Positions 6,216-23,623 of a stretch of DNA of 37,521 bases are shown here, piece after piece. The notes below the pieces were generated by a model. It was not told where the DNA came from and did not search any database. It was given only the letters and a program-made list of their open reading frames with translations. Positions within the stretch are counted from its first letter, which is position 1. Every line of letters starts with the position of its first letter. The DNA is from Planctomycetaceae bacterium (GTDB lineage Bacteria; Planctomycetota; Planctomycetia; Pirellulales; Pirellulaceae), in NCBI GenBank assembly GCA_005798335.1, contig SYJV01000026.1, forward strand, positions 1 to 37,521, given 5' to 3'. The position numbers and the translations under genes are program-made.

Positions 6216-8858
6216 ATGAACAATTTCTATCTAGTTGCTTGTTTTGTTGGACTCAGCGCCATTCAAGGAATTGCTCAGCAGCCTAGTTGGACAAGGGTCA
6301 CGGACCGAGCAGGCTGGCAGCCACGAGACTCGCAGGGAGAAGTGGTTTTCGGCGATCGATTGTGGATCTTAGGCGGTTGGTTCAATTCCTATGAAGCTCC
6401 ACCGCGAGATGTTTGGAGTTCTACCGACGGGCGGGCATGGAATTTGGTCGAGAAATCCGCTCCGTGGTTGCACAGCGACTTGCCAATGACGATCGCCTTC
6501 GATAAACGCATGTGGATGATGGGCGGTTGGTACAACGGCAGATTGCCAGGTCACTCGGCCAGCAATCAAGTTTGGTCTAGCATTGATGGCGTGCAATGGG
6601 ATCAGGTGACAGCGTCCGCCGGTTGGTCGCCTCGCATAGCTGCGGCTTTGGTTGAATTTCAAGGCAAAATGTTCATGCTCGGTGGCACGGAGAACTACTA
6701 CTTCGGCAATTCGCACAGCCTCAAGAATGACGTGTGGCACTCGACCGACGGTAAAAACTGGACTATGGCCACCGCTAAAGCACCTTGGTCGCCGCGCGCC
6801 TATCATCAGGCTGCTGTGCTCGACGGAAAAATCTACGTGTTTGGAGGCGGCAATTACGTTCCGGAATATCAAGCGCTGAATGATGTGTGGTGTTCTGAGG
6901 ATGGGACCCATTGGACCGAAGTAACAAAATCCGCGCCCTGGCATCCGCGACTGTGGTTTTCTTCCGCCGTCTATCGCGATCACCTTTGGGTGCTTGGGGG
7001 ATGGTCCAACAATCCGAGCAAGAATTGGGGCGACGCGTGGTACTCCAAGAATGGTCGAGATTGGAAACAACTCGTTACACCGGTAAATTGGAAGGAACGT
7101 CACGAACATTCAGCGTTCGTTTTTCAGGACAAGTTATGGATCGCCGGTGGTCACGCTCAACCTCTGAGCAGCGAAGTCTGGTCGCTCGACTTACCGATCG
7201 GCTGGCAGGGCGACGCAACATCGGCAACGAACTCGGCCAGCGAATCGAAATCAAGTAGCGAATCGTCAAAGTTGATAGGTCACTGGCCACTCGAGATCGA
7301 TGCACTAGATCATGCGGAGTCCAAACTCGCGACAGTGGCCCGAGGAGTTACGTTCGCTGAGGAAAAATCGACGACCGTGCGACGCGGGGCGGCATTCAAT
7401 GGCCGAGACTCGGTGGTCGAAGTCGAAGACGCAACGGCAGTGCAGCTTGGCTCACAAGAGTTCACGGTATCGTTGTGGGCCTATACAAACAGCGAACTGG
7501 ACGACGTTCTGGGGGACTTAGTCAGCCAATTCGATCCGGCTACGCGAACTGGGTTCAATTTAGGAATCTATAACCATGGAGGCGTTACGAATGGCCAACC
7601 CAATTCACGGCAACTTCATTTCGGAATCGATGCCGCACAAATCGAGGAACGGTTCGTCGATCACGGTAGGTTGGGTAACTCAGTCTTCGTATTCTCGCTT
7701 TGTGTTCACGATCAAAAACTGTACGCCTCGACATGCTACGCGGGCGCCGGTGAAGCGGGTCACGTTTTTCGTTTCGAGGGTAACGATCGTTGGACGGACT
7801 TGGGCAGCCCCGACAAAGCCAACGCGATCTCCGCGATGGCAGTCTACGACGGCAGCCTCTATGTGGCATCGTCCAAGTACCGCTTGGCAGGTTCCGGCTT
7901 GAACGAGTCCGAGAATAAACATTTTGGCGGCAATGTATACCGATTGGGCGGTGACAATACTTGGGAATATTGCGGTAACGTGTCGCCAGAAACCGAAGGA
8001 ATTGCGGCGATGGTAGTTTACCGCGGCAAACTGTACGCCAGTTCGCTGTATCGGCCCGCGGGTTTTTTTCGATTCGATGGTGGCCAAAAATGGACGGCCT
8101 GCGCCACTCCCGAGGGAAAGCGGGTCGAAGCGCTTACCGTACATAATGGTTCCATTTTCGCCACGTGTTACGACGAAGGCTCGGTATTTCGATTCGATGG
8201 CCAAAGTTGGGAGAACGTGGGTAAGATTCCTGATGCGACGCAAACGTACGGCTTTGGGGTTTATCGCGGTGAGTTGTATGTCAGCGAATGGCCAAGTGCG
8301 CACGTATTTCGCTACGCAGGTGGAACCAAATGGACCGATACTGGCAAACTGGGCAGCGAACTCGAAGCGATGCCATTGCTGGTGTACAACGGCAAGATGT
8401 ATGGAGGCACATTGCCGCTGGCCGAAGTATATCGATTCGACGGCGATCAACATTGGACTCGGCTGGCCCAAGTCGACAACACCCCTGACGTGAAGTATCG
8501 TCGAGCTTGGTCGATGGCAGTGTTTCAAGGTCGTTTGTTCGTTGGTACGCTTCCGTCGGGTCGAGTGCTGTCGATCGAAGCTGGCAAGAACGCCACGTAC
8601 GATCGCGAGCTGACACCGGGCTGGCATCATATTGCTGCTGTACGAACTACGCATGAATTGCAATTGTGGGTCGATGGTGAAATTGTCGCTCGGTCGACTC
8701 GCTTTGAACCCGCATCCTACAATCTCTCCAATGCGGGCAAGCTGCGCATCGGCTTTGGTGCACAAGATTACTTTCGAGGTGAAATTTCCGACGTGCGATT
8801 GATTCGCGGGGCGTTGTCGGCTGAGCAGATTCGGGTGCTCGGACAAACAAAACCTTGA
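6216..8858 (+). CDS. Exported double beta-propeller protein with a LamG fold split by the second propeller
   Basis: A protein of 880 residues with a signal peptide (about residues 1-20, AQQ following). Residues about 25-335 hold five Kelch/galactose-oxidase-like repeats, each marked by a W-S-S-x-D-G-x-x-W block, such as WSSTDGRAWNLV and WHSTDGKNWTMA. After a Ser-rich linker, residues about 353-475 give the first half of a concanavalin-like LamG domain (IGHWPLE, then FTVSLWAY). Residues about 488-785 form another propeller of six blades of the form V-F-R-F-x-G-x-x-W. The LamG fold then resumes at about 798-876 with GWHHIAAVR, LWVDGEIV and FRGEISDVRLIRGALS. The likely role is carbohydrate or surface binding; no active site was recognised. 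Last gene of the 3963-8858 unit, 22 bases after the PQQ-like gene. Confidence 0.85.
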   Translation: MNNFYLVACFVGLSAIQGIAQQPSWTRVTDRAGWQPRDSQGEVVFGDRLWILGGWFNSYEAPPRDVWSSTDGRAWNLVEKSAPWLHSDLPMTIAFDKRMWMMGGWYNGRLPGHSASNQVWSSIDGVQWDQVTASAGWSPRIAAALVEFQGKMFMLGGTENYYFGNSHSLKNDVWHSTDGKNWTMATAKAPWSPRAYHQAAVLDGKIYVFGGGNYVPEYQALNDVWCSEDGTHWTEVTKSAPWHPRLWFSSAVYRDHLWVLGGWSNNPSKNWGDAWYSKNGRDWKQLVTPVNWKERHEHSAFVFQDKLWIAGGHAQPLSSEVWSLDLPIGWQGDATSATNSASESKSSSESSKLIGHWPLEIDALDHAESKLATVARGVTFAEEKSTTVRRGAAFNGRDSVVEVEDATAVQLGSQEFTVSLWAYTNSELDDVLGDLVSQFDPATRTGFNLGIYNHGGVTNGQPNSRQLHFGIDAAQIEERFVDHGRLGNSVFVFSLCVHDQKLYASTCYAGAGEAGHVFRFEGNDRWTDLGSPDKANAISAMAVYDGSLYVASSKYRLAGSGLNESENKHFGGNVYRLGGDNTWEYCGNVSPETEGIAAMVVYRGKLYASSLYRPAGFFRFDGGQKWTACATPEGKRVEALTVHNGSIFATCYDEGSVFRFDGQSWENVGKIPDATQTYGFGVYRGELYVSEWPSAHVFRYAGGTKWTDTGKLGSELEAMPLLVYNGKMYGGTLPLAEVYRFDGDQHWTRLAQVDNTPDVKYRRAWSMAVFQGRLFVGTLPSGRVLSIEAGKNATYDRELTPGWHHIAAVRTTHELQLWVDGEIVARSTRFEPASYNLSNAGKLRIGFGAQDYFRGEISDVRLIRGALSAEQIRVLGQTKP

Positions 8859-8872
8859 GCGTCGATGATGTT

Positions 8873-9014
8873 TGTTTAGGCGCAATACCGTTCAACGAAC
8901 GTGGGATAAGCTTCCAGCTTGTCAATATCTTGTGCAATCAATGGCGAAACTCCGCTACAGGTTGACAAGCTGGAAGCTTATCCCACGTTCGTTGAACGGT
9001 ATTGTGTTTAGGCG
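8873..9014. mobile_element. MITE-like element with perfect 43-bp inverted ends and 10-bp target duplication
   Basis: Bases 8883-8925 and 8962-9004 are exact reverse complements (43 of 43), separated by a 36-base spacer. The 122-bp unit is bounded by exact 10-base direct repeats, TGTTTAGGCG, at 8873-8882 and 9005-9014, which is what transposition into a target leaves behind. It has no coding capacity, so it would depend on a transposase encoded elsewhere. It sits between the convergent ends of the LamG/propeller gene and the methyltransferase gene, where its hairpin may also separate the two transcripts. The perfect arms suggest a recent insertion. Confidence 0.85.
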
Positions 9015-9146: not shown

Positions 9147-10094
9147 CTAGACGATTTGCAGCACGTGAGCGCGTACGACTGCACCCATGTCCAGTGCGCG
9201 ATGGTGAGAGTCATGGATTGTCATGCGAGTTGCTTCGGGCACAAACTCGCTGTCGAGCTCTAGACTATCAACCAACAGGTCCGACAATTCGTTACATCCA
9301 AAATGCTCGCTGTGACAACTTAGTACGATCAGCGACCAGGAGTCGTTGAGCAATTGGGCGCACGCGCGCATTAAGTCGGGTAGATCTCGTTGAATTTCCC
9401 AGCTCTTGCCTGATGTGCCGTGGCCATAAGAGGGTGGATCGAGCACGATGGCGTGGTATTTGTTGCCGCGTCGCATCTCGCGACCAACGAACTTGCGCAC
9501 GTCGTCAACGATCCAGCGAATAGGCGCCTCAGCTAGTCCAGATAACTCGGCATTACGGCGAGCCCACGCAACGGTCGGTGCCGAAGCGTCGACGTGCGTA
9601 ACGCGACATCCTGAGGCTGCACAGACAAGCGTCATTCCGCCCGTATATCCGAACAAATTCAGAATTTGCGGTGGCTGCGGTGGGTACGATGTTTCGCCCC
9701 CGGCGCCAGACTCGAGCGGCCGGTGCGTCGCGGCCATTGCTTGACGAAGTTGGGCGTCGATCCACAACCAATTGGTTGCTTGTTCCGGAAAAACTCCGAT
9801 GTGGCCGAATGGGGTCAAGTTGAGCGAGAGCTTAATCGTACTGAAGGTTATGTTCCATGCTTCGTCAAATATCCCGCCTTGAATAACCTGGCCTTCTCGA
9901 GCAACCACTACCATGGCGGATTTCCACTGGTCGAGCGACGCACGATTTTCATGAATCGCCGCTGGACAAGGACGATCGAGTATCCAGCGGCCAAATTTTT
10001 CCAGTTTGCGTCCGTCGCCAAAGTCGAGCAGCGCATATTCCGCCTCATTCCAGCAGCGCCCCGCATCTTCGACCAGCAACTTGTGTTTGCGCAA
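9147..10094 (-). CDS. RlmI-like SAM-dependent methyltransferase (COG1092 family)
   Basis: A protein of 315 residues that aligns by motif with class I methyltransferases of the RlmI/RlmK type, which make m5C or m7G in 23S rRNA. Visible are the SAM-binding motif I NLFGYTGGMTLVCAASG, the acidic motif VTHVDAS followed by ARRNAELSG, the VDDVRKFV motif, and the catalytic-type motif DPPSYGHG. It lacks the PUA domain of full-length RlmI, so the substrate may differ and no symbol is given. The start is a TTG at 10094 preceded by AAGG; no ATG or GTG is available before the upstream stop. Cytoplasmic. It stands alone, convergent with the propeller gene and divergent from the MFS gene. Confidence 0.82.
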   Translation of the reverse strand: MRKHKLLVEDAGRCWNEAEYALLDFGDGRKLEKFGRWILDRPCPAAIHENRASLDQWKSAMVVVAREGQVIQGGIFDEAWNITFSTIKLSLNLTPFGHIGVFPEQATNWLWIDAQLRQAMAATHRPLESGAGGETSYPPQPPQILNLFGYTGGMTLVCAASGCRVTHVDASAPTVAWARRNAELSGLAEAPIRWIVDDVRKFVGREMRRGNKYHAIVLDPPSYGHGTSGKSWEIQRDLPDLMRACAQLLNDSWSLIVLSCHSEHFGCNELSDLLVDSLELDSEFVPEATRMTIHDSHHRALDMGAVVRAHVLQIV

Positions 10095-15590: not shown

Positions 15591-15714
15591 GGCAAGCGGC
15601 AGAGTGATTCTTACCAATACAAGCCCGATGCGCAAGCGAGTGGGGCAATCCTGGCACGTACGCATTCGCTTGCGCATCGGGCTTGTATTGGTAAAAATCA
15701 TTCTGCCGCTCGCC
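15591..15714. repeat. Palindromic intergenic repeat, family with core AAGCCCGATGCGCAAGCGA, copy 1
   Basis: Bases 15591-15642 and 15663-15714 are reverse complements in 48 of 52 positions around a 20-base spacer. The core AAGCCCGATGCGCAAGCGA recurs in the element at 23491-23623. It lies in the 271-base gap between the lipoprotein start and the end of the ceramidase-family gene, which otherwise holds nothing I recognise. Confidence 0.85.
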
Positions 15715-23490: not shown

Positions 23491-23623
23491 GGTCGCGCGG
23501 CAGATAGTTTCTTACCAATACAAGCCCGAGGCGCAAGCGAGTGTATGCCAGGATTGACGCACTTGCTTGCGCATCGGGCTTGTATTCGCATAGGCCTTGG
23601 TAAATTCCCATCTGCCGCTCGCC
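23491..23623. repeat. Palindromic intergenic repeat, same family as 15591-15714, copy 2
   Basis: The left arm (23491-23543) and right arm (23560-23623) pair through the shared core AAGCCCGA(T/G)GCGCAAGC. The right arm carries an extra stretch of about ten bases (around 23587-23598) that breaks the symmetry. It lies in the 448-base gap upstream of the DUF3604 gene and the divergent cytochrome gene. That gap holds this repeat, the one at 23751 and no gene I can support. Confidence 0.82.

Follow-up and report, generated by a model that had tools for sequence, protein, structure and literature searches.

The 122-bp unit at positions 8883-9004 of the window, by which we mean the whole stretch of 37,521 nt of Planctomycetaceae bacterium DNA that was analysed, is best read as a MITE of the IS4 family (IS4 subgroup) with an inverted pair of REP-like hairpins inside it, a reading to which, its proposed origin included, we give a probability of about 0.78. 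Comparison between sequences shows the ends of the unit, its 10-bp duplication, a paralogous empty site, the IS of relatives and the presence of the core both with and without tips, and the core itself is probably a REP of the tyrosine-transposase kind. The unit and its flanks divide as follows:

8873-8882, forward strand: left copy of the target-site duplication, TGTTTAGGCG, 10 bp; other insertion sites have other sequences
8883-8900, forward strand: left tip, CAATACCGTTCAACGAAC, an IS4-type terminal inverted repeat; its first 17 bases match the ends of IS4 remnants L128, L132 and L138 and MITEs elsewhere
8901-8925, forward strand: left REP-like unit, GTGG plus the 8-pair hairpin GATAAGCT-TCC-AGCTTGTC (+AA); tip-less in six related genomes
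8926-8961, no strand: spacer of 36 nt separating the two inverted arms
8962-8986, reverse strand: right REP-like unit, inverted (from the comparison of arms)
8987-9004, reverse strand: right tip, the inverted copy of the left tip (from the comparison of arms)
9005-9014, forward strand: right copy of the target-site duplication, TGTTTAGGCG, 10 bp

As is characteristic of MITEs, the unit is non-coding, contains no transposase gene and has perfect inverted ends. Its arms (8883-8925 and 8962-9004) are 43 nt each, 100% complementary and 36 nt apart, and the perfect 43-bp arms, 36-base spacer and TGTTTAGGCG on both sides that a sequence-only reading had described were exact on re-measurement. It sits between convergent genes: on one side an ORF that matches kelch and laminin-G ends at 8858, and on the other a methyltransferase-like ORF of the opposite strand ends at 9147. 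The folding energy of the single DNA strand is -56.3 kcal/mol (z -16.6 relative to 200 shuffled sequences), and in the bacterium's own genome (8.46 Mb, 558 contigs) the 43-nt arm has 159 forward and 148 reverse matches with at most 3 mismatches, against 0 for the reversed-pattern control. The strong fold, together with arm matches that the control lacks, indicates that the inverted arms are not due to chance. The 18-base tip, allowed at most 1 mismatch, gives 179 + 170 = 349 matches, or about 175 copies; the fetched loci hold 44 distinct copies, of which 41 are 122 bp long, two 131 bp and one 118 bp.

Duplications were read in these 44 of about 175 copies, a non-random sample skewed to the best-scoring copies and to sites catalogued as single arms. 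Both 10-bp flanks are present in 41 of the 44; the pair is perfect in 23, agrees at 9/10 bases in seven and at 8/10 in four, and seven copies are without a good duplication (2-6/10). Agreement at at least 8/10 is thus seen in 34 of 41 copies, compared with 4.0% of left/right cross-pairings between different copies. Insertion targets are centred on TTAA and show a palindromic preference with TA at the centre, position 5 being T and position 6 being A in 32 each of the 34 copies that agree at at least 8/10. The 23 perfect duplications are 23 different sequences, so the 10-base repeats are not conserved parts of the element, the one outcome that the sequence-only reading had regarded as fatal to its claim of a non-autonomous mobile element with exact ends and an intact 10-bp target duplication. 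That claim, which was to be followed through the arm matches across the genome, is borne out by 23 perfect pairs among 41 that all differ from site to site, and by the empty site described below.

Base 56 of the element is T in the window copy, G in 28 of 30 compared copies and C in L009. The 30 best-scoring own copies are identical save for this base, yet the 10-bp flanks are mismatched in 12 of the 27 that have both in full; homogenisation between copies or assembly consensus could account for this identity. In the own-genome copy at 306-427 of L040 each 10-bp flank is the exact reverse complement of the other and not a direct repeat, and the same holds for the 10-bp flanks of an IS copy in a relative (L149, G242), as if the element plus one flank had been inverted.

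An empty site is provided by copy L004, which sits inside a second palindromic repeat in the arrangement CGCTTAGGCC-element-CGCTTAGGCC. In loci L045 and L215 this repeat is uninterrupted and CGCTTAGGCC occurs once; at the corresponding position the copy of the repeat in the window has CGCATAGGCC. The site is paralogous, not orthologous; relatives of the methyltransferase neighbour in named genomes (10 loci, best identity 45%, in a Pirellulaceae bacterium) gave no orthologous empty site because none of them is a close locus. Two copies of the second repeat lie in the window (15594-15711 and 23495-23620), with ends GAGCGGCAG.., inner arms resembling TACAAGCCCGAAGCGCAAGCGAGTG and, by eye, TTA/TAA-like triplets at their flanks. 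The inner arm surrounds a weak Y1-transposase-like ORF in the own genome (L220; 22.2 bits, Pfam cut-off 23); taken singly, the repeat forms no hairpin. A second MITE-like family may thus be present, with repeats that belong to a tyrosine-transposase system.

Following the tip into relatives brought up transposase remnants that end just inside it (L084, L093). A 42-aa query taken from one transposase remnant and searched in 241 genomes of the family matched in 18, with stop-free frames of at least 455 aa at nine places and a frame with a stop at one (L136). Ten IS copies can be read at both ends; they measure 1448-1476 bp (about 1.47 kb), and their ends, written CAATACC.., start with CAATAC, or in one case TAATAC. 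Their duplications are 10 bp long, perfect in five copies (L129, L133, L137, L145 and L154), 9/10 in L136 and L143, 8/10 in L149, 6/10 in L148 and 5/10 in L131, so that eight of ten agree at at least 8/10 bases. ORFs of 458-477 aa are present in L129, L131, L133, L137 and L145, and the four scanned proteins (L129, L131, L137 and L145) match NF033592 transpos_IS4_1 above the cut-off (E 9.5e-46 to 6.9e-52) as well as PF13006 Nterm_IS4 and DDE_Tnp_1; the YREK pattern Y..R...E......K is present in L129, the one protein checked. IS with matching ends therefore exist in relatives (L129, L131 and L133), along with remnants that carry the first 17 bases of the MITE exactly (L128, L132 and L138). Table 1 of PMC2266710 describes the IS4 subgroup as 1400-1650 bp long with ends of the form -AATR--------WTW and duplications of 10-13 bp. 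The partner IS agrees with the published size and duplication length, and the likeness extends to ends made of a variable base, AAT and a purine, to YREK and to duplications of about one helix turn. The 122-bp unit differs from that description in being gene-less and in having CGA, as do the three remnants, in place of WTW at tip positions 14-16, with AATA in agreement. An IS4-subgroup mover of the MITE would be expected to have CAATACCGTTCAACGAA ends.

The sequence-only reading had expected a transposase that makes 10-bp duplications and recognises these ends elsewhere in the same genome. IS4-family IS in relatives answer to this description, but the own assembly has 0 matches to an IS4-subgroup transposase with either the 42-aa or a 460-aa query, and for this reason we infer that the mover is lost, unassembled or elsewhere. 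The Nterm_IS4 domain is absent from the proteins at all five DDE_Tnp_1 (PF01609) places of the own genome, one of which (L051) is cut by a contig end. In the genus relative G004 the 460-aa query matches eight times, always partially; four of the matches are C-terminal pieces whose first base is base 3 of a contig, which is what assembly would leave of a repeated IS.

Two candidates were rejected. L055 is not the autonomous partner, since it is a Tn5-like IS inside the REP of a MITE copy and has different ends of its own, and a 1083-bp arm pair at C22 turned out to be two separate copies instead of an IS. Tn5-like IS4-family ends lie within the REP-like hairpin at L055 (G000:C54), L095, L096, L108, L117, L248, L256 and L205; all but one of these insertions are in MITE copies, the exception being in a free REP, and their position is constant within each genome group. 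Tn5-like transposases were scanned from L055 and L108 only (NF033590, PF14706 and PF02281), and the 9-bp flanks of L055 are reverse complements, not direct repeats.

The 43-bp arm, which the sequence-only reading had taken for a single terminal repeat, consists instead of an 18-bp (17-18 bp) IS4-type tip joined to a separate 25-bp REP-like hairpin (GTGG plus stem-loop); inside the tip, the own arm runs on as GTGGGATAAGCTTCCAGCTTGTCAA. A GTGG tag and an 8-pair stem, arranged as an inverted pair, give the core the tag-and-hairpin form of REPs and REPINs, and seven of eight tested REP-like units fold as a tag plus a hairpin of 7-9 pairs. The own-type unit, single-stranded sequence GTGGGATAAGCTTCCAGCTTGTC, also occurs tip-less in six genomes (G001, G002, G011, G023, G027 and G030; 23-mer, at most 4 mismatches), in none of which a tip match was found, and these units carry changes on both sides of the stem, from AAGCT/AGCTT to AGGCT/AGCCT. 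In the own genome, the C that precedes the unit in the MITE is absent at four REP-like unit places only; L204, L206 and L207 are free units, and L205 has a REP next to an IS end. The tip without a REP occurs once in the own genome under the exact pattern, as a deletion variant.

The tip was matched in 21 of 241 genomes, 12 with a single match and nine with at least two; the reversed-pattern control matched once in each of eight genomes, so single tip matches may be chance. The same tips enclose other cores:

G004, G020, G196 and G197: pairs of core GTAGTGGACGAGGTTACGAGTCC
G126: core GTAGTGGATCTTGCCAAAGATCC with partners of the GTAGTGGAAGTTGCC.. type
G003: core GTAGGCGAGTCTCTCCGAGACTCGC
G169: core GTGGCATAGGCCTCTGGCCTGTG

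With one representative each, the tip-free interiors of the own element, G003, G126, G169 and the G004/G020/G196/G197 group have mutual scores not above the best of 50 shuffles, and within that group the four interiors resemble one another well above shuffles. The own and G100 interiors reach a score of 24, where shuffles reach at most 21, and have the short stretch TTGTGCAAGC in common. Tip-bearing copies with other cores, taken from eight genomes, have perfect duplications in 7 of 26 and agreement at at least 8/10 in 18 of 26 (cross-pair control 11.4%). The comparison of interiors and flanks left out L240, L241, L244, L245, L248, L249, L252, L253, L256 and L257, loci with no genome assignment, as well as G029, whose right end is too far from the tip. 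Most examined copies of the G196 core lie inside a MITE. Among 20 places of G196 picked for their absence from a partial tip list, 13 are, by eye, MITEs with decayed tips (L284 being doubtful) and L282, L288 and L292 are free clusters; L286, L295, L296 and L297 have a different outer sequence in common (by eye), perhaps a second carrier. L116 (G196:C1:3940500-3943500) is a tandem array of a REP-bearing MITE unit with a 167-bp period.

The strongest alternative, which we nevertheless consider improbable, is an ordinary IS4-derived MITE with long arms, in which the inner 25 bp are arbitrary, were made symmetric by template switching and resemble a REP by chance. Template switching can keep perfect palindromes perfect, the core of the G196 group (G004/G196) folds weakly as a single hairpin (4 pairs, z -0.65), and the own-type repeat is without a linked tyrosine transposase at the Y1 places read. 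Two MITEs with the same tips, L082 (G100) and L101 (G029), have by eye no clear REP pair, which likewise fits an arbitrary interior and implies that the REP core is not required. An arbitrary interior would, however, hardly be found as the tip-less 23-mer with paired stem changes in six genomes that have no tip match, nor would four further unrelated cores be expected to begin with GTAG or GTGG followed by an outward-facing hairpin or imperfect hairpin. The core repeats of G196 are also found free, in the three clusters named above.

It is far less likely that a RAYT moves the entire 122-bp unit as one large REPIN, with the 10-bp flanking repeats reflecting target preference. The own genome does have 17 Y1_Tnp matches, and a GTAG-tagged hairpin, one of those that fold, lies about 145 bp downstream of a Y1 ORF (L208). 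No own-type REP was found beside Y1 genes at the 17 own places, several of them at contig ends with cut flanks, or at 25 Y1 places of G001, G027, G030 and G126; G011 has no Y1 match, though it has free own-type REPs. Since no own-type REP is near any Y1 gene read, the core is termed REP-like and not REPIN. Two REP pairs near Y1 genes were rejected as linkage, that at L222 (G196) because the pair lies inside a MITE and that at L162 (G169) because about 370 bp, filled by other sequence, separate it from the gene. Against movement of the whole unit by a RAYT, the identical flank pairs differ at each site and the paralogous site that lacks the unit shows the 10-mer once, which is what movement by a DDE transposase would leave, and the same kind of tips and duplication is seen on IS4 copies with open transposase genes. 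The suggestion that the unit is an immobile functional palindrome (a terminator or mRNA stabiliser) with flanks that by chance look duplicated draws on a very stable RNA hairpin (-86.9 kcal/mol), on the convergent genes around the window copy and on the location of 21 of 22 copies with full flanks (from 31 loci) outside ORFs of at least 150 aa, but as a sole explanation it is already refuted by the 23 different perfect duplications and the empty site, and convergent ORFs flank just 3 of the 22. The unit may still influence transcript ends as a secondary effect.

For the IS4-subgroup MITE with its REP-like pair, we suggest mobilisation in trans: an IS4-type DDE transposase would act on the 17-18 bp tips, excise the unit and reinsert it, the target cut being staggered by 10 bp. 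The REP pair would be a passenger of a minimal IS4 derivative, brought in probably by a tyrosine (RAYT-type) transposase, and different lineages would have acquired different REP pairs; in the own genome the transposase may have been lost or left unassembled. Against this reading weigh the 0 matches to an IS4-subgroup transposase in the own assembly, the Y1 genes read without an own-type REP beside them, the weak hairpin of the G196 group, the two tip-bearing MITEs with no clear REP pair and the position of most examined G196 core copies inside a MITE. There is perhaps an even chance that this represents a modular hybrid of Pirellulaceae type, in which minimal IS4 ends repeatedly capture the REPIN of the lineage, mobilised by a DDE transposase and loaded by a tyrosine transposase, with the REP pair swapped in each lineage.

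MITEs are in general short and non-coding, with terminal inverted repeats and a target duplication, high-copy and mostly intergenic. The 122-bp unit has these general features in common with the bacterial MITEs Nezha, Chunjie and MITEAba12, which are named in PMC3733652 and PMC10969869, but inside it lies a REP-like inverted pair, one that is found free as well and that varies by lineage while the tips are constant. With GTAG-type REPs and REPINs, as presented in PMC3733652 and PMC3116915, the core shares a GTAG/GTGG tag and a short hairpin in an inverted pair; PMC3733652 mentions GTGG variants in O. terrae and, separately, REP families of R. baltica. It differs from them in being enclosed by DDE-transposon tips with 10-bp duplications and in that no linked tyrosine transposase was found. 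Titles and abstract openings among the matches listed include no published hybrid of a MITE and a REP pair. Two kinds of bacterial mobile repeat appear to be joined in one unit. The spread of REPs is described as poorly understood in PMC8266576, and a MITE that carries REPs is a possible route for it, in which a common cut-and-paste transposase does the moving and insertion scars are left behind. With cores that differ from genus to genus while the ends stay the same, one could ask how often MITE interiors are swapped and whether hairpins are preferred as cargo.
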